The notes below the pieces were generated by a model. It was not told where the DNA came from. It saw nothing but the letters and a program-made list of their open reading frames with translations, and searched no databases. The translations under genes were made by a program, and so were the position numbers. This document shows positions 4,472 through 32,023 of a stretch of 32,812 bases of DNA, piece after piece. The stretch is from the NCBI GenBank assembly GCA_028698175.1, contig JAQVDU010000008.1, positions 1 through 32,812 of the forward strand, written 5' to 3'. Position 1 is the stretch's first letter, and every line of letters begins with the position of its first letter. This DNA comes from a bacterium (GTDB lineage: Bacteria; Hydrothermota; 32-111).

Positions 4472-5291
4472 CGAAAATGTATTCAATTATCTCAGGACAA
4501 ACAAACTGCCTCACATCTGGTGTCCCGGATGCGCCCATGGAATAATTACAGCCGCACTTCTTCGAGGGATTGACAAGCTGAAACTCGATAAAAATAAAAT
4601 AAGCGTCATTTCCGGTATAGGATGCTCAGGCAGAACTCCCGGATACCTTGACATGAACACTTTACACACGACGCACGGCCGCTCTCTGACCTTTGCCACA
4701 GGGATAAAGTTCGCAAATCCCTCTCTTACAGTGATTGACATCATGGGTGACGGAGACGCTCTGGCAATAGGAGGCAACCACTTTATCCACGCGTGCAGAA
4801 GAAACATTGACATTACAGCAATTATTTTCAACAACAACATATACGGAATGACAGGCGGACAGTATTCGCCGACAACCCCTGTGAATGCATACGCTTCAAC
4901 AGCACCCTACGGAAACGTTGAGCCGCCCTTTGATATCGTAAAGCTGGCAATGGGCGCCGGCGCCACTTTCGTGGCGAGGGGAGACGCATTCCACATAGCA
5001 TTGATGGATAAGATAATTGAGCAGGCGATAAGCCACAAGGGATTCTCCGTAGTTGAAATCATGGCAACATGCCCGACCCAGTTCGGTCGTCGCAACAAAA
5101 TGAAGGAGCCGCATCAGATGCTTGACTATGTGGCTGAGAAGGCGGTTTCAATAAAGAAATGGAATGAAATGTCTGAAGAGGAGAGAGCGGGAAAGTTCCC
5201 GGTCGGAATCTTCATCGACGAATCGAGACGCGAATACTGCGAAGCTTATGAAGATAATGTCATAAAGAAAAGCGAAAGGGGTGAAAAATGA
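4464..5291 (+). CDS. korB: 2-oxoacid:ferredoxin oxidoreductase, beta subunit (thiamine diphosphate-binding)
   Basis: A 275-residue catalytic subunit. WCPGC (Cys20, Cys23), GIGC (Cys54) and ATCPTQFGRRN (Cys203) provide the four cysteines expected for the proximal [4Fe-4S] cluster. GDGDAL at 95-100 with NNNIYGMTGGQ at 123-133 is the thiamine diphosphate/Mg binding signature. It overlaps korA by 8 nt. The enzyme would decarboxylate the 2-oxoacid on thiamine diphosphate and pass electrons to ferredoxin, or run in reverse in a reductive TCA branch. Confidence 0.92.
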   Translation: MYNENVFNYLRTNKLPHIWCPGCAHGIITAALLRGIDKLKLDKNKISVISGIGCSGRTPGYLDMNTLHTTHGRSLTFATGIKFANPSLTVIDIMGDGDALAIGGNHFIHACRRNIDITAIIFNNNIYGMTGGQYSPTTPVNAYASTAPYGNVEPPFDIVKLAMGAGATFVARGDAFHIALMDKIIEQAISHKGFSVVEIMATCPTQFGRRNKMKEPHQMLDYVAEKAVSIKKWNEMSEEERAGKFPVGIFIDESRREYCEAYEDNVIKKSERGEK

Positions 5292-5842
5292 TGAGAGCTG
5301 AAATTCGTCTTGGAGGAAACGGCGGACAGGGAATAATTCTTGCCGCAAAGGTTTTGGCGGAGGCGGCCGGAATTTACGCCGGTTTAAACGTAGTTCAGTC
5401 GCAGATATACGGAGCGGCGGCAAGGGGCGAGCTGTCAAAGGCGGACGTTATAATCGATGACGGTGACATTTACACTCTTGAAATTTCGTCTGCGGATTTG
5501 CTGCTCTGTCTCTCTCAGGAGGCATACGACCATTTTAAAAACGAGCTTAAACCGGAAGGAAAGCTTGTTCTTGATGAATTTTACGTTAAGGACTATGACC
5601 AGCTTGACAAGAGGTTCCTCGCATTCCCGATATCGCAGATGTCAAAGGACCTTGCGGGAAGCGAAATGTTCTCAAACATGATATCTGTGGGCATCCTGAC
5701 GGTCGTGGGCGGTTACTTCTCTGAGGAGCATGCTCTCAAAGCGGTTGAAAAGAATGTTCCGAAGAACTTTTTAGATATGAATTTAAAAGCAGTTCAGATG
5801 GGATTTGAAGAGGCAAAGAAAAAACTGAAAAAGAACTGCTGA
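5288..5842 (+). CDS. korC: 2-oxoacid:ferredoxin oxidoreductase, gamma subunit
   Basis: A 184-residue gamma subunit. The N-terminus IRLGGNGGQGIILAAKVLAEA and the following SQIYGAAARGELSKADVII are the standard signature of this subunit, which contributes to CoA binding. The ATG overlaps the korB stop as ATGA and an AAGGGG site precedes it. It is the last gene of the operon and is followed 16 bp later by a hairpin terminator. Confidence 0.92.
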   Translation: MMRAEIRLGGNGGQGIILAAKVLAEAAGIYAGLNVVQSQIYGAAARGELSKADVIIDDGDIYTLEISSADLLLCLSQEAYDHFKNELKPEGKLVLDEFYVKDYDQLDKRFLAFPISQMSKDLAGSEMFSNMISVGILTVVGGYFSEEHALKAVEKNVPKNFLDMNLKAVQMGFEEAKKKLKKNC

Positions 5843-5857
5843 AAATAAGGCATGAAT

Positions 5858-5888
5858 AAAAAAGGGAGGGTTTAGCCCTCTCTTTTTA
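5858..5888 (+). terminator. Rho-independent terminator of the kor-fum operon
   Basis: AAAAAGGGAGGG and CCCTCTCTTTTT form a 12-bp stem with one G-U type mismatch around a TTTAG loop, and the descending arm ends in five T. The flanking A and T tracts could make it work on both strands. Confidence 0.85.
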
Positions 5889-5920
5889 TAGGTACTAGGT
5901 TAAATACAAATGAAGACTAT

Positions 5921-5944
5921 GGGGACAGCACTTGTACTGTTCCC
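5921..5944. repeat. REP-like palindrome, copy 1
   Basis: GGGGACAGCAC-TT-GTACTGTTCCC is an imperfect palindrome matching four copies near 27928-28350. Such GGGGACAG...CTGTCCCC palindromes resemble REP elements mobilised by Y1 (RAYT) transposases. No such transposase lies in this window. Confidence 0.7.
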
Positions 5945-5953
5945 AATCCCCCC

Positions 5954-5993
5954 GGGTTGCACCAGAAGTTTTAGAAGATTATTGTAAAGACAA
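5954..5993. repeat. 40-bp dispersed element, copy 1
   Basis: GGGTTGCACC then AGAAGTTTTAGAAG then ATTATTGTAAAGACAA matches 28108-28146 with one gap and two substitutions. Just beyond it CTTACTC (5997-6003) pairs with GAGTAAG (6012-6018), so the element is followed by a small stem-loop in both copies. It could be the end of a lost mobile element. Confidence 0.7.
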
Positions 5994-6024
5994 AATCTTA
6001 CTCAGATCATAGAGTAAGAAAGGT

Positions 6025-6063
6025 GTAAAAGGAAAAAAGCATTATGCTTTTTAACTCTTTTAC
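6025..6063. terminator. AT-rich hairpin, possible terminator
   Basis: AAAAAGCA and TGCTTTTT pair around TTA, and an outer GTAAAAG/CTTTTAC extends the arm. It lies about 70 bp downstream of the minus-strand lipoprotein gene and could end that transcript. The flanking repeats make this uncertain. Confidence 0.4.
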
Positions 6064-6133
6064 TTTATAACTATTTAACTATTTTACTTTTGTACTTTTG
6101 TACTTTTTTACTTTTTTACTTTTTTACTTTTAA
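6054..6133. repeat. 8-bp tandem repeat, ten units
   Basis: Ten head-to-tail octamers with no indels: ACTCTTTT, ACTTTATA, ACTATTTA, ACTATTTT, two ACTTTTGT, three ACTTTTTT and ACTTTTAA. The three identical central copies show recent expansion. The stop codon of the minus-strand lipoprotein gene lies inside the last unit. Confidence 0.85.
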
Positions 6134-6591
6134 AACACAGAATCGTCTGTAAATTCGTAAATAATGGAAATTTCTTTTTTGTAAAGCGTGGGACCTGTTA
6201 TGGACAAGACCCTGAATTTTGCGAATCCGTCCCTGCACTTCATAACGTAAAGGTGGCCTGCGATTATTGGGTTTGAGATTGAATCGAACTGCAGGTCAGG
6301 CTCTATTCTGTCTATGTAATTGAATGATTCCTCATTGTAATCCTTGATGTTCTGCCTGAGAGAGAGCGTGTCGAGAAGAAGGTATATGTTCGGCTCCCTC
6401 AGGGGATTTTCTACTGACGGGTTATAGTCGACAATAGCGATTATGTCATTTTTGCTGAAATTGGAATTGAGGTTTCCGATAGAAAAATCAAAGCCATAGT
6501 AGTAAATCACTCCCTCATTTGAACTTCCCATGAAATAGCATGATGAAAAGGCGAGAACCAACATTATCATTGAAATAAATATTTTATTCAT
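6130..6591 (-). CDS. hypothetical small lipoprotein
   Basis: A 153-residue protein with a signal peptide (hydrophobic IFISMIMLVLAF) and a lipobox-like AFSSC with Cys18, so probably a membrane-anchored lipoprotein of about 135 mature residues. The rest is a mixed alpha/beta sequence with no family I recognise. It runs divergently from mfd with 28 bp between start codons. There is no visible ribosome-binding site, and a TTGACA box begins 35 nt before the ATG, so translation may be leaderless. Its stop codon falls in the octamer tandem repeat, so the C-terminus could change if that array shifts. Confidence 0.7.
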   Translation of the reverse strand: MNKIFISMIMLVLAFSSCYFMGSSNEGVIYYYGFDFSIGNLNSNFSKNDIIAIVDYNPSVENPLREPNIYLLLDTLSLRQNIKDYNEESFNYIDRIEPDLQFDSISNPIIAGHLYVMKCRDGFAKFRVLSITGPTLYKKEISIIYEFTDDSVF

Positions 6592-6597
6592 TATAAT
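6570..6597 (+). promoter_or_regulatory. sigma-70-type promoter of mfd
   Basis: TTGAAA (6570-6575), 16-bp spacer, perfect TATAAT (6592-6597). It lies inside and just before the first codons of the divergent lipoprotein gene, so the two transcription units compete for the same DNA. Confidence 0.65.
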
Positions 6598-6626
6598 ACT
6601 TTAACTTAAAGCAGAATGTATGTCAA
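6598..6626 (-). promoter_or_regulatory. weak promoter of the divergent lipoprotein gene
   Basis: On the minus strand TTGACA (6626-6621) is followed 17 bp later by TAAAGT (6603-6598), six bases before the ATG at 6591. The -35 box lies within the first codons of mfd. The -10 match is poor. Confidence 0.4.
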
Positions 6627-9589
6627 GATTTAATGAACTTCTCAAAATAATTCCAGAGACACCCCCCGAAAAATCCGCATGGGGCATGATTCCATTTATA
6701 CTTAAAAAGAGATCTTTGAAAGGAGAGAGGCAGATTATCATTGAGTCCGATTTTGACAAGGCATCTCTTTTAACAGAAAATCTTGAACTCTTCGGCGGCG
6801 ATTCATACCTTTTGGTGGACTCTTCGAATGAGAATTCCGTTTATCAGGCGCTCTGGGGAATTAAGAATAAAATGTCCATTGTTTCTGACTGTGACTTTCT
6901 CAAGCTTAAATTTCCCCATCCGGATATTTTCAAAGAGAGGGGAATTCTCATAAAACGAGGAATGAAGCTTGATATGCCAAGAATGGAGAGCATATTCGAA
7001 TCCTTCTCTGTTGAAAAACAAGACAATGTGTATGAGAGGGGTGAATACGCAGTTAGAGGATTCATACTCGACGTGTACGGAATAGCCGGTCCGCCGGTGA
7101 GAATTGAGCTGTATGATGATACTGTGGAAGATATAAGAGAGATTTCAACGCAGACGCAGGAATCCGTAAATAAGCTTGAAGAATTTTTCATTCCGGAAAA
7201 GTTTTCATCGGATGAGGCGGTGGTTCCGGCATCCGAATTCTTTGAGTCATACAAAACGTACGATATGGAGACTCTCTCTATTGAAAACAATCCCGATTAC
7301 TCAAAGAGCGGGGAACTGAAGCCCCTCTCCCTCGTCTCCGGATCGCTGAGCTCATATTTGGAGGAGAACTACAAAGGCTACAAAGTCTTCATATTCTGCG
7401 CCAATGACTATGAGGAAGAGAGAATAAAAAAGATAACGTCGGTTAATGCTGAGTATTTCAGAGGCAACATTGTATCCGGATTTTCTCTCAATGAAGAAGA
7501 GTGCCTCTTCATAAATGATTTTGAAATATTCTCCAGAAAAAGGTTTTCAAGGTTTTACGAAGTTCCCCTCTCCCCTATAGCTCTTGAGGAGCTTGATTCC
7601 CTTGAAACCGGCGACTTGATAGTCCATCAGACATACGGAGTGGGCAGGTACGCAGGGATAGAGAGGGTCGCCTACGGAGAGAGGTATACGGACTGCATCA
7701 GGATCTTCTATGAGAACAATGACAAGCTCTACGTGCCCATAGACCAGATACGGCTGATAGACAAATACATCGGAGGAAAGGAGAGGGAGCCGAAACTCTC
7801 ATCTCTCTCGAAAAACTCATTTGAAAGACAGAAAGAAAAAGTAAAAGAGTCAGTGAAAAAAATCGCGGGAGAGCTCCTTCGGCTCTATGCGGAAAGGGAG
7901 GTGGTGAAGGGCTTTTCATTTCCCGCAGATGACGAGAAGCAGATAGAGATGGAGGAGATGTTCGAGCATGAAGAGACAAATGACCAGCTGAAGGCCATTG
8001 AAGAGGTCAAGAGAGACATGATGAAGGAAAAGCCGATGGACAGGCTTATATCCGGAGAGGTGGGGTACGGAAAGACCGAGGTGGCGGCGAGAGCCGCTTT
8101 CAAGGCCTATCTCAGCGGCAAACAGACGGCATTCTTAGTGCCCACGACAATTCTCGCCCAGCAGCACTATGAGACCCTTAGGGACCGTCTCCAGAATTTT
8201 CCCGTAAAAATACAAACCCTCTCGCGCTTTCGAAGCGAGAAGGAGAAGAAAGAGATAAAGAAACAGATAAAGGAGGGTGACGTTGACATTGTTATAGGCA
8301 CGCACGCCCTTCTTTCTAGCGACATAGAGTTCTTCGATCTCGGGCTTTACATTGTGGATGAAGAGCACAGGTTCGGAGTCAAGCAGAAAGAAAAGATTAA
8401 AGAGATAAAAAAGAACATTGACGTCCTCGCAATGTCTGCAACACCGATTCCGAGAACTCTTGAGATGGCTCTGACCGGAATAAAGGATATTTCAAACATA
8501 ATGACCCCGCCGGCCGGAAGAAAGGCGATAAAGACATACGTGGTGAAATGGTCTGAAGACACGGTCAAGAGCGCGATTCTCAAAGAGCTCTCGCGGCAGG
8601 GACAGGTTTATTTTCTGCACAACAGGATAGAGACACTTAAAAGCGTAGAAGAGAAGCTTAAAGAACTGCTTTCGGAAGTGAGCATTGTCTCTGTCCATGC
8701 GCAGATGCACTCCTCCGAGATTGAAAAGAAGATGCGCTCCTTCAGGGAGAGAGAGTTCGACCTTCTCCTTTCCACGGCGATAATAGAATCCGGAATAGAC
8801 AATCCCAATGTCAATACGATGGTTATAAACAGGGCTGACATGTTCGGTCTGGCGGAATTGCACCAGCTGAGGGGAAGAATAGGACGGTCCCACAGGGAGG
8901 CATACTGCTATCTTATAGTGCCGGAGAAGGAGAGGATAACGGAAAATGCCAAAAAGCGCCTCTCCGCCTTCAAGTCATACTCCTCTTTGGGGGCAGGAAT
9001 AAACCTCGCCATAAAGGACGTGGAAATGAGGGGCGCCGGAAAGATACTCGGAACAGAGCAGCACGGATTCATAGGAAGCGTGGGATACTCTCTCTATTTT
9101 AAAATCCTGAATGAAGCGATTGACGAGGTTAAGGGAATTAAAAAAGCATCACTTATTGAACCGACGATAAACATCCCGGGGCGCACGTTTGTTCCGGATG
9201 CGTTTAATCTCACCAAGAGCGGCAAGATGAAGCTGTACAGAGATATCTCCATGATAGCAAAGCTTGAAAACGTCGAAAAGGAGAGAGCAAGATTCATTGA
9301 CAGATACGGAAAGATGGTTGAGGAGATAAAAAACATCTTTCTTATGCAGGAGATGAAGATTATCTGCAAGGAGAAGCTTATAGGCAAAGTAGAGATGCTT
9401 GGTCATAACCTTTACATAGAGTTCATGGTCGGATACGAACCCGACTTAAATCTTCTAAGGCCGCTTCTCTCTAAGATTGAAAATCCCATAGAACTCCGCC
9501 ATCAGCCGTCCTTTACGATTGTCGTCAAAGAGGTTGATGCCACTGGGATTTTCGAGTTTTCCAATAAGCTCTTGAAAAGTTTGTTATAA
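6620..9589 (+). CDS. mfd: transcription-repair coupling factor Mfd
   Basis: A 989-residue Mfd, which removes stalled RNA polymerase at DNA lesions and recruits UvrA. Domains in order: a UvrB-like N-terminus (EYAVRGFILDVYG and RIELYDD near 140-180), a CarD-like RNA polymerase-interacting domain from about 330 (GDLIVHQTYGVGRYAGIE, then LYVPIDQIRLIDKYIG), and the translocase core. The core has Walker A GEVGYGKT (about 479-486), DEEH (579-582), SATPIPRTL (about 606) and QLRGRIGRS (about 748). A TRCF C-terminal domain follows. It is some 150 residues shorter than E. coli Mfd, mostly before the CarD-like domain. The ATG at 6620 has no good ribosome-binding site. The parvulin genes follow after 32 bp. 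Confidence 0.96.
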   Translation: MSRFNELLKIIPETPPEKSAWGMIPFILKKRSLKGERQIIIESDFDKASLLTENLELFGGDSYLLVDSSNENSVYQALWGIKNKMSIVSDCDFLKLKFPHPDIFKERGILIKRGMKLDMPRMESIFESFSVEKQDNVYERGEYAVRGFILDVYGIAGPPVRIELYDDTVEDIREISTQTQESVNKLEEFFIPEKFSSDEAVVPASEFFESYKTYDMETLSIENNPDYSKSGELKPLSLVSGSLSSYLEENYKGYKVFIFCANDYEEERIKKITSVNAEYFRGNIVSGFSLNEEECLFINDFEIFSRKRFSRFYEVPLSPIALEELDSLETGDLIVHQTYGVGRYAGIERVAYGERYTDCIRIFYENNDKLYVPIDQIRLIDKYIGGKEREPKLSSLSKNSFERQKEKVKESVKKIAGELLRLYAEREVVKGFSFPADDEKQIEMEEMFEHEETNDQLKAIEEVKRDMMKEKPMDRLISGEVGYGKTEVAARAAFKAYLSGKQTAFLVPTTILAQQHYETLRDRLQNFPVKIQTLSRFRSEKEKKEIKKQIKEGDVDIVIGTHALLSSDIEFFDLGLYIVDEEHRFGVKQKEKIKEIKKNIDVLAMSATPIPRTLEMALTGIKDISNIMTPPAGRKAIKTYVVKWSEDTVKSAILKELSRQGQVYFLHNRIETLKSVEEKLKELLSEVSIVSVHAQMHSSEIEKKMRSFREREFDLLLSTAIIESGIDNPNVNTMVINRADMFGLAELHQLRGRIGRSHREAYCYLIVPEKERITENAKKRLSAFKSYSSLGAGINLAIKDVEMRGAGKILGTEQHGFIGSVGYSLYFKILNEAIDEVKGIKKASLIEPTINIPGRTFVPDAFNLTKSGKMKLYRDISMIAKLENVEKERARFIDRYGKMVEEIKNIFLMQEMKIICKEKLIGKVEMLGHNLYIEFMVGYEPDLNLLRPLLSKIENPIELRHQPSFTIVVKEVDATGIFEFSNKLLKSLL

Positions 9590-26671: not shown

Positions 26672-27325
26672 CTACTCTCCTGTTCCTCCGAATAAAACTC
26701 CGAGCGAACAGTTCACTCTCAAAGGTCTGTCTTCCGGCTGATTGTAAACCGTTGCTCCGTCATCCAGCTGCCACTGCCATCCGAACCCGTATACGACTCC
26801 GCCCTTCAAAGAGAGGGCGATGAAATCCTTAAGCTTGTAAAGGAGCATAAGAGATGCCCCGACCTCCATGCCTCCTCTCGTTATCGTGGAGACCCTTCCG
26901 GGATTTAAAAGAAGAGAATCAAATGATATATCCGACAGATTGGGCCTCAGCTTCATGTCCTCTCCTCCTCCTCCGAGCCCAAGTATTATTCCTAAATTCA
27001 AAACCTTCAAATCAAACATAGGGCCGAATTCAAACATTCCTGAGCCGTATGAATAATCTATCTTGAGGTCCTGCGTCGCATAAGTTCTTGAAGCTCCGAA
27101 TCCGCTGCCACCCATCGCAAAATTCTTTGTTATAAAGATTCCTCCTCCCCCGGCTCCGTAGAGAATACCGTCAAGCTCTATTCCAACCTGAGAGAGAGAT
27201 GAATTGATATTGTCATTCTTCTGATAGGTTCCTCCTATAAGCAATCCTCCGTAACCGCCTGATTCAGGGAAGGCAATGATAAAAGCAAACAAAATGAAAA
27301 CAATCGAGATGAATGATTTTTTCAT
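26672..27325 (-). CDS. exported glycine-rich protein, possible outer-membrane protein
   Basis: A 217-residue protein with a signal peptide ending near AFP (residue 20). The mature part is rich in glycine and alternating hydrophobic residues (YGAGGGGIFITKNFAMGG, GIILGLGGGGEDM) and may form a small beta structure in the outer membrane or periplasm. No family assignment. AAGGAGAG precedes the ATG, which overlaps the upstream LiaF-like gene as ATGA, so the two are a coupled pair. Confidence 0.65.
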   Translation of the reverse strand: MKKSFISIVFILFAFIIAFPESGGYGGLLIGGTYQKNDNINSSLSQVGIELDGILYGAGGGGIFITKNFAMGGSGFGASRTYATQDLKIDYSYGSGMFEFGPMFDLKVLNLGIILGLGGGGEDMKLRPNLSDISFDSLLLNPGRVSTITRGGMEVGASLMLLYKLKDFIALSLKGGVVYGFGWQWQLDDGATVYNQPEDRPLRVNCSLGVLFGGTGE

Positions 27326-27846: not shown

Positions 27847-27927
27847 CAACTGGCTGTTGGCGGGTTTAGCGCCGTCTCACACAGCATGCATCCGCGTCTT
27901 TGACTGCGGTGTCCTTGATTCAGCGTT

Positions 27928-27950
27928 GGGACAGTACTTCGTGCTGTCCC
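27928..27950. repeat. REP-like palindrome, copy 2
   Basis: GGGACAGTAC-TTC-GTGCTGTCCC, with one T-G mismatch in the stem. It has the same orientation as the copy at 28032. Confidence 0.8.
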
Positions 27951-28031
27951 CATACACCTCCGTCGGGACGCTTCGCCTGCCGTCCTCGCCGGCTTATAGC
28001 TTTCACTTTCAATAAGTATTGAATTCTGTTG

Positions 28032-28058
28032 TGGGGACAGTACTTCGTGCTGTCCCCA
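28032..28058. repeat. REP-like palindrome, copy 3
   Basis: TGGGGACAGTAC-TTC-GTGCTGTCCCCA, a 12-bp stem with one wobble. It matches copy 2 in orientation and is inverted relative to copies 4 and 5. Confidence 0.85.
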
Positions 28059-28255: not shown

Positions 28256-28282
28256 TGGGGACAGCACGAAGTACTGTCCCCA
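28256..28282. repeat. REP-like palindrome, copy 4
   Basis: TGGGGACAGCAC-GAA-GTACTGTCCCCA, the reverse-complement orientation of copies 2 and 3. Confidence 0.85.
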
Positions 28283-28323: not shown

Positions 28324-28350
28324 TGGGGACAGCACAAAGTACTGTCCCCA
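28324..28350. repeat. REP-like palindrome, copy 5
   Basis: TGGGGACAGCAC-AAA-GTACTGTCCCCA, same orientation as copy 4 and 68 bp from it. Confidence 0.85.
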
Positions 28351-28579: not shown

Positions 28580-29467
28580 ATGAAAAATAAAAGGAACCTG
28601 CTCTACATATACGGCTTGATTCCGGCAGTAATATGGGGAGTTTCATTCATCGCCACAAAGCAGGCAGTCTCTGAGGTTCCACCATCCACTCTCGGCTTCA
28701 TAAGGTTCATAATCGCCTATGCTGTACTTGAAATCGTTACGCTTATTAAGAGAGAATCCTTTCAAACAAAGATTCCTTCAAGGGAGAGGTGGGTGCTCTT
28801 TCTTATGGGCTTCTTCGGAGTGACCCTCTACTTTGTGGGAGAGAATTACGGACTTCAGCACACATCCTCATCAAACGGTTCTCTTATCGTCTCTACAATA
28901 CCGATATTCACCCTTATAGCAGAGAGGATTGTCTACAGAAGAAGGCCATCCCTTATCACAACCATCGGACTTATCATGAGTTTTGTGGGGATTTATTTCT
29001 TAATCTTCGGATTCTCCTTTATCAAAGATGTAAACGTGCGAGGGGACCTTGTAATGTTTGTGCCGGTCTTTTCATGGGTTGTATTTACTTACATATCAAA
29101 AAAGAAGCAGACATCTCTTTCGACTCTGATTGTGACAAAGGAGATGACATTCTACGGCGCAGTCTCATTCTTTCCATTCATGTTCTTTGAGCTGAAGTCC
29201 GGACTATGCTTCTTCCGCCTCTCGGTTCTCACGTGGATTTCCATAATCTACCTTGCTGTGATTTGCTCATCCTTTGCATATGTGCTATGGAACAAGGGTC
29301 TTAAGGAGTATGACGAAAAGAAGGTCAACTCTTTCATATATACAATACCTGTCTTTACAATCATTGCGGAGCTGATAATATCCCGCTCCCTTCCAAAGCT
29401 TTCAATGGTTCTCTCTTCGATTCTCATAATAGCCGGCCTATTCATAACTCACAGAGAAGCCAAGTGA
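28580..29467 (+). CDS. EamA-family (DMT superfamily) transporter
   Basis: A 295-residue membrane protein with about ten helices in two EamA repeats. The first repeat starts IPAVIWGVSFIATKQAV with PPSTLGFIRF following. The second ends YTIPVFTIIAELIISR and a final hydrophobic helix before a basic tail. Such exporters move amino acids, purines or other metabolites; the substrate is not predictable. It stands alone behind its own promoter, without a ribosome-binding site, next to the palindrome-rich spacer. Confidence 0.88.
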   Translation: MKNKRNLLYIYGLIPAVIWGVSFIATKQAVSEVPPSTLGFIRFIIAYAVLEIVTLIKRESFQTKIPSRERWVLFLMGFFGVTLYFVGENYGLQHTSSSNGSLIVSTIPIFTLIAERIVYRRRPSLITTIGLIMSFVGIYFLIFGFSFIKDVNVRGDLVMFVPVFSWVVFTYISKKKQTSLSTLIVTKEMTFYGAVSFFPFMFFELKSGLCFFRLSVLTWISIIYLAVICSSFAYVLWNKGLKEYDEKKVNSFIYTIPVFTIIAELIISRSLPKLSMVLSSILIIAGLFITHREAK

Positions 29468-29468
29468 C

Positions 29469-29485
29469 AAAAACGTAGGTTTTTT
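29469..29485 (+). terminator. weak AT-rich hairpin after the EamA gene
   Basis: AAAAAC-GTAG-GTTTTTT is a small stem followed by T; a TTACA...TGTAA repeat overlaps it. It may end the EamA transcript but is thermodynamically weak. Confidence 0.3.
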
Positions 29486-29550
29486 ACATTTTTGTAATGA
29501 TTCTTGCTCTCTTTTATTTTGTAAGTTGCGCAATTAAGGGAATTTCTTGT

Positions 29551-29568
29551 TTGGCATGCGCGTTGCTT
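29551..29568 (+). promoter_or_regulatory. sigma-54-type (-24/-12) promoter
   Basis: TTGGCATGCGCGTTGCTT matches the -24/-12 consensus TTGGCACG-N4-TTGCT, with the GG and GC pairs exactly 12 bp apart. The predicted start near 29578 precedes AAGGAGG (29588-29594) and the ATG at 29599. It predicts RpoN-dependent, activator-controlled expression of the downstream exported-protein genes. No enhancer-binding activator gene is in the window. Confidence 0.65.
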
Positions 29569-29598
29569 TGGTAATGGTCAACCAAACAAGGAGGCACG

Positions 29599-29973
29599 AT
29601 GAAAAAAATATTGACGGTTCTTTTAACAGCGGCTCTTATACTTTCTAGCGTCTTTGTGCTGGCTGAAGAGAATAAAGAGCTGAACAAAGAGAATTCAGAA
29701 GAGCTCAATCAGGAAAAAGAAGAGAATAAAGGAACAACTGAAAACAAGGAACAGAACAAAAACCTTGAGCAGAACAGAATCAAAAATCAGGAGAAAAACT
29801 TTGTCGACGAAGACGGAGACGGAATATGCGACAATGCCAAGGACGGCGACGGAGAGAAGAACATGTATCAGCACAGAAACCAGAACCAGACGAGGAATCA
29901 GAATAACAATGACAACAGCACAAACGGCAAGACCCAGAGAAAGGGCGATGACAACAAGCCAGGCAAAAAATAG
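29599..29973 (+). CDS. small exported acidic protein with DxDxDG calcium-binding-like motif
   Basis: A 124-residue protein with a signal peptide (cleavage probably after VLA, residue 22). The mature chain is low complexity: first Glu/Asn/Lys/Gln repeats (ENKELNKENSEELNQEKEE), then FVDEDGDGICDNAKDGDGEK (about 68-87). That block looks like a calcium-binding EF-hand or thrombospondin type 3 loop. An Asn/Gln/Arg-rich tail follows. AAGGAGG precedes the ATG and a sigma-54-type promoter lies 31-48 bp upstream. It is the first gene of the operon, and a hairpin pair separates it from the next. Disordered and secreted; function unknown. Confidence 0.75.
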   Translation: MKKILTVLLTAALILSSVFVLAEENKELNKENSEELNQEKEENKGTTENKEQNKNLEQNRIKNQEKNFVDEDGDGICDNAKDGDGEKNMYQHRNQNQTRNQNNNDNSTNGKTQRKGDDNKPGKK

Positions 29974-30610
29974 TCCTCACACTCCCTTTTTTAATATAAC
30001 TCAAGCCTTGAGGGGACAATGGTCCCCTCTCGGTCTTTTTCTGACCATTGTTTTTTCAGTTTCGCTCTCTGCGAACTCTTCACCGTCGGACGCCACATCT
30101 TTTATCGGTTACAGGGATGAAAACAGAGACGGGGTCAATGATATTTACTGCGACAAAAACGGAGACGGAATCAATGATGTTGACGGAAAAGAGATATTTC
30201 TGAAGGTGAAATACGAAGACAATGACAATGACAACAGAAATGACCTCTTTATAGACGAGGACGGAGACGGAGTCAATGACGTTTATTTGATGTCAAACAG
30301 TATGCCTGTAATAGACAATGACAATGACAAAATTAACGATATAACCGGAATAAAATACAAGAAGGGATTCTACAGCGGGTCGCTCTTCGGTCTTGCCATT
30401 GAAGAGAAGGGGCTCTGGCTTGAAGATTTTAGGGATGATGACAGCGATTTCTGCGACGATGAAGTCAAAGCCGAAATTATTAAAGACAAAAACGACGTCT
30501 TTAAGGATGAGGACGGAGACGGAATAAGCGATGACAGGGAGAGCGTAATGAATAAGAGACGTTACCGCTCCATATTCAAAAGAGTGATCAAAAAGGGGAA
30601 GAACAAGTGA
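29948..30610 (+). CDS. exported DxDxDG-repeat (calcium-binding-like) protein
   Basis: About 220 residues if started at the ATG at 29948, which overlaps the previous gene by 26 nt; a TTG at 30008 is an alternative. The ORF-track start at 29765 reads through the previous gene in another frame and gives an Arg/Thr-rich artefact. A signal peptide (PLGLFLTIVFSVSLSA) precedes at least four acidic loops: DENRDGVND, DKNGDGINDVDG, DEDGDGVND and DEDGDGISDD, plus DNDNDNRND. These resemble thrombospondin type 3 or dockerin-like calcium sites. The C-terminus is basic. An attenuator-like hairpin pair lies in the signal-peptide region. The next gene overlaps as GTGA. Confidence 0.75.
   Translation: MTTSQAKNSPHTPFFNITQALRGQWSPLGLFLTIVFSVSLSANSSPSDATSFIGYRDENRDGVNDIYCDKNGDGINDVDGKEIFLKVKYEDNDNDNRNDLFIDEDGDGVNDVYLMSNSMPVIDNDNDKINDITGIKYKKGFYSGSLFGLAIEEKGLWLEDFRDDDSDFCDDEVKAEIIKDKNDVFKDEDGDGISDDRESVMNKRRYRSIFKRVIKKGKNK
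30010..30056 (+). promoter_or_regulatory. attenuator-like mutually exclusive hairpins
   Basis: Hairpin A is GAGGGGAC-AATG-GTCCCCTC (30010-30029), 8 perfect pairs. Hairpin B pairs ACAATGGTC (30016-30024) with GACCATTGT (30043-30051), 9 perfect pairs, followed at once by a T tract (30051-30056). They share 30016-30024 and cannot both form. B has terminator form and A could prevent it. Regulation is inferred. Confidence 0.5.
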
Positions 30611-31611
30611 GAAAAACAGAGATTGCATTTTTCATAATGGTTTTGTTTTTATGCGCGCAAAGCTCAAATCTTGACTTTTCGCTGACCGACAATATCTACA
30701 ACACTGCGACAAAGGAGTATGACATTGAGTTCAACGGAGAATACAGCGCAAAGGTTAACAGAGAAAAATTTGACGCATTCTTAAACATAGGACTTTACAC
30801 TCCGCTTATCAACAATTACATGCTCAGTCTCCCTTCGGACTTTACGCTCCAGTTTGTTCCGGCAGACAATGACAGGCGGACCATTATGACGGGCGTCTAT
30901 TCGTTTGAAAGGTTCTTTGTTTTTCAGGAATTCCGGGAAAACAATATGATAGCTCCAGGATTATTCATAGATCACAAAGAGTATGCGAATGAGTTTCTGA
31001 CAGTGAAGAATTCATTGGAAGGCAGGGGCGAGAGATTTATTATTCTCGACAGACTCTCCAGCTTTAAAACTGAGGGTTCAACAAAGTGGATGGTCGGTCT
31101 TCCGGTCGGGGTCTCTCTGCACATGTTTCTCTCCGCAGGATGCAAAATAAATCAGGATAATTCAAAAAATATCAGGTGGAGTTTTTCGCCCCTTGCTGCA
31201 GTGAATCTCTTCTCCTCAATCGGATTGTCCGCATCATACGCGTACTCGAAAACATACGGCGACACCCTTGAATACTACATTGATGATTCATTTGTCGATG
31301 AATATTATTTTTCTGAATCAAAAGTCATCTTAAAGGCGACTGTTCTTCTGGGAGAGAATGCCAGAACCGTAATTGAATCCTCCTATTCGATGCTTGATTA
31401 TCTTCCTCTCTATCACACTTCCGAAGCCGACTCTTTGCTGACCGGAACGGTGGAGACGAGAGATGACGGAATTCTTGCTATTAAAGCAGATTTGAAGCTT
31501 AAGAATGGAGATCGGAATTATTATTTCCGCTTCCAACACACAAAAAGGAATTCAACAAATGCGCTATACTCTTACAGCGGCAATTCTTTTACTTTCGGCA
31601 TTGAATTTTAA
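30607..31611 (+). CDS. putative outer-membrane beta-barrel protein
   Basis: A 334-residue protein with a signal peptide (about 1-18, ending LCAQS). The mature sequence is built of alternating amphipathic strands (YDIEFNGEYSAKV, FDAFLNIGLYTPL, AAVNLFSSIGLSASYAYSK). It ends in NSFTFGIEF, with the C-terminal Phe that marks a barrel-assembly signal. No specific family is recognised. The GTG start overlaps the previous stop by 4 nt. Its place after two DxDxDG exported proteins suggests it could anchor or export them, but this is a guess. Confidence 0.7.
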   Translation: MRKTEIAFFIMVLFLCAQSSNLDFSLTDNIYNTATKEYDIEFNGEYSAKVNREKFDAFLNIGLYTPLINNYMLSLPSDFTLQFVPADNDRRTIMTGVYSFERFFVFQEFRENNMIAPGLFIDHKEYANEFLTVKNSLEGRGERFIILDRLSSFKTEGSTKWMVGLPVGVSLHMFLSAGCKINQDNSKNIRWSFSPLAAVNLFSSIGLSASYAYSKTYGDTLEYYIDDSFVDEYYFSESKVILKATVLLGENARTVIESSYSMLDYLPLYHTSEADSLLTGTVETRDDGILAIKADLKLKNGDRNYYFRFQHTKRNSTNALYSYSGNSFTFGIEF

Positions 31612-32023
31612 CTGTTTTCTTAACGGCGGAAAATACGAGTATGTGCGTTTTACTGCGCACAATGAAGAATTTTACCTTGAAAACGAAACAAAAAACTATT
31701 CGGATGATTCTGGATATTATGTAATGCATGCTGAGGATTCTGCGGGAATGTGGAGCGCGGACATTATTCTTCCTCAGGATGATTATTTCGGAGTGATATA
31801 CATTCCCTATGACAATTTCACGGAGATAAGGATAACCGATAAGTCGTCAGAAAAGATTTTTGCGGCCGATGCGGCTAGGGGAAAGGGGGAGTTTACTGTT
31901 GAATCGCGTCCGGATTCAGCTTTTCACGAACTTTCAGGTTCGTTTTCCGGAGAACTGGTCAACATTCTTGATGATTCAGACACCCTTTACGTTTCCGGCG
32001 GATACTTCATATTTGTCTTTTGA
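31559..32023 (+). CDS. hypothetical exported protein or lipoprotein
   Basis: A 154-residue protein with an N-terminal hydrophobic segment TLTAAILLLSALNFNC that could be a signal peptide, with Cys20 as a non-standard lipobox. The rest is beta-rich (YVRFTAHNEEFYLENETK, FGVIYIPYDNFTEIRI) and matches no family I know. I start it at the ATG at 31559 with AAGGA upstream, giving a 53-nt overlap with the barrel gene; the ORF-track start at 31505 lacks a signal peptide at its N-terminus. It is the last gene of the operon and ends 2 bp from the convergent kinase gene. Confidence 0.65.
   Translation: MRYTLTAAILLLSALNFNCFLNGGKYEYVRFTAHNEEFYLENETKNYSDDSGYYVMHAEDSAGMWSADIILPQDDYFGVIYIPYDNFTEIRITDKSSEKIFAADAARGKGEFTVESRPDSAFHELSGSFSGELVNILDDSDTLYVSGGYFIFVF

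Follow-up and report, generated by a model that had tools for sequence, protein, structure and literature searches.

The 32,812-nucleotide stretch analyzed here (the window) carries a four-gene operon of exported proteins with a sigma-54 promoter and, shortly after its first gene, a hairpin. Both are conserved in four genomes, and a conserved alternative to the hairpin is absent. With a probability of roughly 0.6, we read this as an RpoN-dependent envelope or secreted operon in which a single fixed hairpin after gene 1 would act as a partial terminator or as a 3'-end protector, leaving the gene 1 product in excess.

The operon and its distribution

The window corresponds to contig C63 in a draft genome of 1.96 Mb (G000, 91% complete) from an uncultured WOR-3 bacterium. 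It was compared with one genome of the same genus (G001) and two of the same family (G003 and G004), making four genomes in total. GTDB-linked records name as relatives UBA2202 and UBA6260, both candidate division WOR-3 bacteria, and an "Acetofilamentum sp." MAG. The four-gene operon of exported proteins described in the original prediction is present in the window and recurs, with the same genes in the same order, in all three of these relatives. It is absent from a fourth relative, G002, and among the genomes searched the operon family is confined to one WOR-3 family. In all four genomes, the operon is flanked by an EamA transporter gene upstream and by a histidine kinase gene downstream on the opposite strand. 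Beyond the kinase, the three relatives also have two adjoining membrane proteins with PDZ-like beginnings and then an MBL-fold hydrolase (L013, 5204-7216; L014, 4724-6707; L015, 9340-11342). In the window, REP-like palindromes of the form GGGGACAGYAC..GTRCTGTCCCC were noted at 5921-5944, 27927-27951, 28033-28057, 28257-28281, and 28325-28349, with a cluster upstream of the EamA gene.

All four genes lie on the forward strand. Gene 1 (29599..29973) encodes a 124-amino-acid exported protein rich in N, E, Q, and K, with one conserved NFVDEDGDGICDN motif and 78%, 47%, and 50% identity to its counterparts in G001, G003, and G004, respectively; a single DxDxDG motif is found in this protein. Its Shine-Dalgarno sequence, AAGGAGG (29588..29594, forward strand), gives a duplex of -11.2 kcal/mol. 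Gene 2 (29948..30610) encodes an exported protein with DxDxDGxxD repeats. Its structure prediction is of low confidence (pLDDT 38), and calcium binding is plausible from the resemblance of the DxDxDG motif only. Gene 3 (30607..31611) is predicted from its structure to be an outer-membrane beta-barrel protein, consisting mostly of beta strands (pLDDT 72) and matching porin or TonB-type barrels by fold only. Gene 4 (31559..32023) encodes a small lipoprotein with the lipobox LNFNC and is found in all four genomes. None of the four proteins was named by Pfam, NCBIfam, or PDB sequence searches.

Wider homologues of gene 2 occur in seven further genomes of the phylum (G005, G007, G008, G014, G020, G026, and G031). 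They have the repeats in common, but their operon is a different one, with a lipoprotein and a PEGA-type protein and with neither gene 1 nor the hairpin. In other WOR-3 families we observed a separate conserved operon (L068-L074) that encodes an Fn3-like lipoprotein, a protein of the PEGA type, and a relative of gene 2 with DxDxDGxND repeats.

A conserved sigma-54 promoter with a tandem upstream palindrome

The promoter TTGGCATGCGCGTTGCT (29551..29567, forward strand) is an exact match to the -24/-12 pattern TGGCAYN5TTGCW and is conserved in the four genomes. Across the 1.96 Mb of the genome there are seven matches to this pattern, compared to one for the reversed control pattern, and the score of this site was reached by 0 of 3,000 mononucleotide shuffles of the intergenic region. 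When TGGCATGCGCGTTGCT was compared across genomes, the scored positions matched at 11 of 11 in three genomes and at 10 of 11 in G003; the equivalent sites in the relatives are TTGGCACATGGGTTGCT, TTGGTATAGAATTTGCT, and CTGGCATAGATTTTGCT. The distance from the promoter to the gene 1 ATG is 27 to 31 nt in the four genomes, and transcription would start near 29578. Two other exact sites in G000 (loci L007 and L009, on contigs C15 and C41) are followed, at 28 and 43 bases, by pilin-like genes (GFTIIELMIVV and GFTLIEVMIAI). Pilin-like genes are familiar RpoN targets, and the pattern thus finds plausible promoters in this genome.

The genome also encodes the proteins that such a promoter calls for: RpoN, with its DNA-binding domain detected at an E value of 1.7e-52, and seven strong Sigma54_activat proteins (enhancer-binding proteins, or bEBPs). 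The original prediction had proposed sigma-54 control from a near-consensus -24/-12 element, and RpoN control of the operon is indeed supported by the conserved promoter, RpoN, the bEBPs, and a tandem site upstream.

This upstream site, a feature overlooked in the original prediction and conserved in four genomes, is the tandem palindrome TGACAAAAACGTAG..TTACATTTTTGTAA (29465..29497, forward strand). Its copies at 29465-29478 and 29484-29497 are 19 bp apart in the window, and the spacing is 20 in G001, G003, and G004. All four genomes keep the form T(N)ACA-N4-TGT(N)A and its position at the end of the upstream gene. Scans of bEBP loci and other sigma-54 sites gave no similarly strong pair besides the operon's own copies. 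From its conserved position and form, the palindrome is probably the upstream activator (bEBP) site. A candidate for the activator itself is a response regulator on contig C105 (L103, ORF 5280-6719), which is a sigma-54 activator paired with a histidine kinase; the kinase gene lies before it, and LemA-type and DUF2207-like genes lie after it. Its reciprocal best hits are clear in each of the operon-bearing genomes, and G002 has none; it is the sole one of the seven activators that clearly shares the presence and absence pattern of the operon. As this pattern comes from five genomes, the regulator is a lead only.

A hairpin after gene 1 is conserved as a structure

The 8-bp stem of the original prediction, stem 1, is present as GAGGGGAC-AATG-GTCCCCTC (30010..30029, forward strand), 36 nt past the gene 1 stop. 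Of the nine perfect 8-bp hairpins with a loop of 3 to 8 in the window, it is the only one after position 27000. All four genomes have a hairpin in nearly this position (36, 36, 35, and 31 nt past the stop), and in each of them no other 45-nt segment of the operon folds as stably, the next being weaker by at least 6 kcal/mol. Since G001 and the window have identical hairpins, the four genomes contain three distinct ones, and the hairpin sequence is largely different in the two more distant genomes.

In a MAFFT alignment that was not fitted to the structure, compensatory double changes occur at 9 of the 12 pairs. The pairing register is the one singled out by a slid-register control: 89.6% of cells are paired, compared to 68% in shuffles and 38 to 56% in slid registers. 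Since the stretch is also open in the gene 2 frame, the hairpin was tested against synonymous recodings. Of 2,000 recodings, those as stable or more stable numbered 221 for G000, 18 for G001, and 0 for both G003 and G004; codon choice does not account for the hairpin in three of the four genomes. In G000 much of the stem is already dictated by the peptide RGQWSP, which is not so in the other genomes. From the gene 1 stop to the end of the hairpin, G000 and G001 use the same codon at 16 of 16 shared residues, compared to 64% in the remainder of gene 2. Taken together, conservation of stem 1 as a structure is strongly supported. A search with Rfam covariance models returned no match at an E value of 1 or less for 29400-30200 and none at the gathering threshold in the four loci.

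A terminator scan picks the hairpin, a stable G+C-rich stem-loop, on the forward strand in all four operons. The T tract nearest to stem 1, TTTTT (30036..30040, forward strand), is separated from the perfect stem by six bases and stands in a tail with 8 T in 15 bases. The tails of the relatives have 8, 12, and 10 T in 15 bases, and the T tract of G004 is interrupted. All four genomes have at least five T in an 8-base stretch 0 to 2 bases past the stem, a count to be read with the 6-nt gap of the window and the signal-peptide coding bias in mind. Because this sequence encodes a hydrophobic signal peptide, T-richness after the hairpin is expected anyway.

Between the gene 1 stop and the hairpin lies the conserved block ACTCCCTTTTTTAAT (29981..29995, forward strand), 8 bases past the stop in the window. 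Across the four genomes ACTCCCTTTTTWAAT sits 8 to 11 nt after the stop and is nearly unique in each, with one copy in each of the three relatives and two in G000; every copy is at this operon, save one on contig C110 of G000. The block is pyrimidine-rich and can pair with Shine-Dalgarno-like sequences, including that of gene 3. When the pairing of ACTCCCTTTTT with about 2,400 ribosome sites was ranked, the gene 3 site came at 18, 0, 0, and 10 in the four genomes. Other purine-rich sites score equally well, and this pairing is therefore a weak lead only.

The second stem is probably incidental

The original prediction had placed two mutually exclusive perfect stems after gene 1 and derived from them a switch with conditional read-through. 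Both stems are present in the window: in stem 2, ACAATGGTC (30016-30024) pairs exactly with GACCATTGT (30043-30051), so that it spans 30016..30051 on the forward strand and overlaps the arms of stem 1. If the two stems competed, a signal or a ribosome would pick between termination and read-through, and several features of the window are consistent with such an attenuator. T-rich sequence follows stem 2, and giving up stem 1 costs the fold just 2.6 kcal/mol in a 90-nt frame, although 6.0 kcal/mol in a longer one. Shuffling the downstream 31 nt gives a 9-bp match of this kind in 0.06% of cases, a rarity calculated for a stem chosen after the fact. However, stem 2 has no counterpart, even of 5 bp, in G001, G003, or G004, despite the identical stem 1 region of G001. 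Folds of the relatives without stem 1 are 6.5 to 14.1 kcal/mol worse, and stem 1 is both transcribed first and more stable (-16.0 kcal/mol alone, compared to -10.2 kcal/mol for stem 2 alone). Conservation in related genomes therefore holds for stem 1 and fails for stem 2. Because the alternative structure has no counterpart in the relatives, a two-state switch is not conserved; we consider one very unlikely, and stem 2 is probably incidental.

The start of gene 2

Two codons are candidates for the start of gene 2, ATG 29948 and TTG 30008. The TTG stands at the foot of stem 1 and has no Shine-Dalgarno sequence. The ATG is within the last codons of gene 1 and has weak ribosome-site support. In all four genomes, the frame of gene 2 is the only one open between the gene 1 stop and the hairpin, both other frames containing stops. 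The start is uncertain, with ATG 29948 appearing to be the better candidate; from there, the hairpin would be about 62 nt into the coding sequence. The original suggestion that the hairpins overlap the start of gene 2 is to be corrected accordingly: the hairpin lies in the only open frame leading into the gene, and TTG 30008 is one of two candidate starts.

Proposed function of the hairpin and alternatives

In our preferred reading, a bEBP at 29465-29497 would activate the sigma-54 polymerase at 29551-29567. The hairpin at 30010-30029 would then end a fraction of transcripts or shield the 3' end of the gene 1 mRNA, and the small acidic exported protein of gene 1 would be made in excess of the repeat protein, the barrel, and the lipoprotein. 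In E. coli, a ribosome at a stop codon represses a terminator within about 27 nt, while terminators beyond this distance reach full efficiency (PMC4824070). The hairpin starts 31 to 36 nt past the stop, beyond this block, and would therefore be free to fold during translation of gene 1. Intercistronic structures that protect the 3' end of an upstream gene's mRNA are also documented (PMC5927463), which makes protection, by analogy, as well precedented as termination. The two are indistinguishable by sequence and both predict gene 1 product in excess. Expression of gene 1 alone, as first suggested, or in excess could thus be allowed by the conserved hairpin, with no conserved two-state switch, since there is no conserved second structure.

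The alternatives with the most in their favor involve translation of gene 2. If gene 2 starts at ATG 29948, its early ribosomes could run into the hairpin and prevent termination, so that the operon would continue only if gene 2 is translated. The position of the hairpin 62 nt into a putative gene 2 frame that is uniquely open in four genomes fits this idea, and ribosome effects of this kind on terminators have been measured (PMC4824070). However, in the same study terminators located no more than 100 bp into a coding region worked and were usually unrepressed in E. coli (PMC4824070). The ribosome sites of the candidate ATG codons are weak and variable, and the codons themselves could be chance, because the D and N codons of gene 1 favor ATG in the gene 2 frame. 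We regard this coupling as unlikely, and as quite unlikely its form without a leader peptide, in which translation of gene 2, possibly together with ACTCCCTTTTTWAAT, would decide on transcription of the remaining envelope operon. Decidedly unlikely, in our view, is that the stem controls translation by hiding a start at its foot, TTG 30008 in the window and CTG in G003 and G004. An NTG codon does occur at the equivalent place in all four genomes, and gene 2 is without an ordinary start or a strong ribosome site. Against this stand the lack of a Shine-Dalgarno sequence at the TTG sites, the marginal sites of the CTG codons (-2.4 and -3.5 kcal/mol, 0 to 1 nt from the codon), the rarity of CTG starts, and the frame that stays open upstream through the gap. 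Genes 1 and 3, moreover, do have good Shine-Dalgarno sites.

Two further explanations were rejected. A programmed frameshift with the hairpin as stimulator would fuse gene 1 to gene 2, whose frame is +1 to that of gene 1 and open through the 3' half of gene 1 in four genomes. Such an open frame is expected, because the codons of gene 1 mostly have A in the second position. The four stops share no slippery sequence, and known frameshift stimulators are much closer than the 31 to 36 nt seen here, which makes a frameshift highly improbable. The hairpin could also be a copy of a dispersed REP-type palindrome inserted into the operon, given that G000 has about 16 GGGGACA...TGTCCCC palindromes, several of them in the window, and G001 has 6. 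Yet the GGGGAC core is all that stem 1 shares with this repeat; on the outer side the stem continues with GA/TC, which the repeat does not. G003 and G004, with no copy of the repeat family, have unrelated hairpins of near-equal length at the same position, and a REP origin is hardly credible.

Significance and comparison with known systems

In a phylum with almost no cultured members, these results provide a well-supported case of RpoN control of an envelope operon, joined to a conserved RNA element that probably makes protein output unequal. A covarying hairpin in the stretch before a signal peptide, leading into a gene without an ordinary start, is a concrete and testable layout. They also show that, when two stems look attractive in one sequence, one of them can be incidental, as is probably the case here.

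The system belongs to known kinds. As in sigma-54 promoters with bEBP sites, the same TGGCAY-N5-TTGCW element is combined with a tandem palindrome about 55 to 70 bp upstream of it, and the exported gene set fits the general theme that sigma-54 controls exterior components (PMC3162934). It differs in that the activator is only a candidate and the operon family is restricted to one WOR-3 family among the genomes searched. The window allows two overlapping stems, as in two-state attenuators such as that of B. subtilis rplJL (PMC4538822), but here the second stem is unconserved and a leader peptide or binding site was not recognized. The hairpin resembles Rho-independent terminators beyond the ribosome shadow in its stem-loop, T-rich tail, and stop-to-stem distance (PMC4824070), while its T tract is imperfect and overlaps signal-peptide codons, so termination would presumably be partial only. 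In the malE-malF and puf operons (PMC5927463), intercistronic stem-loops raise the abundance of the first gene over the others; the strong, conserved hairpin described here likewise comes directly after the first gene of an operon of secreted proteins, but it lies within an open frame that leads into gene 2 and not in a gap between genes.
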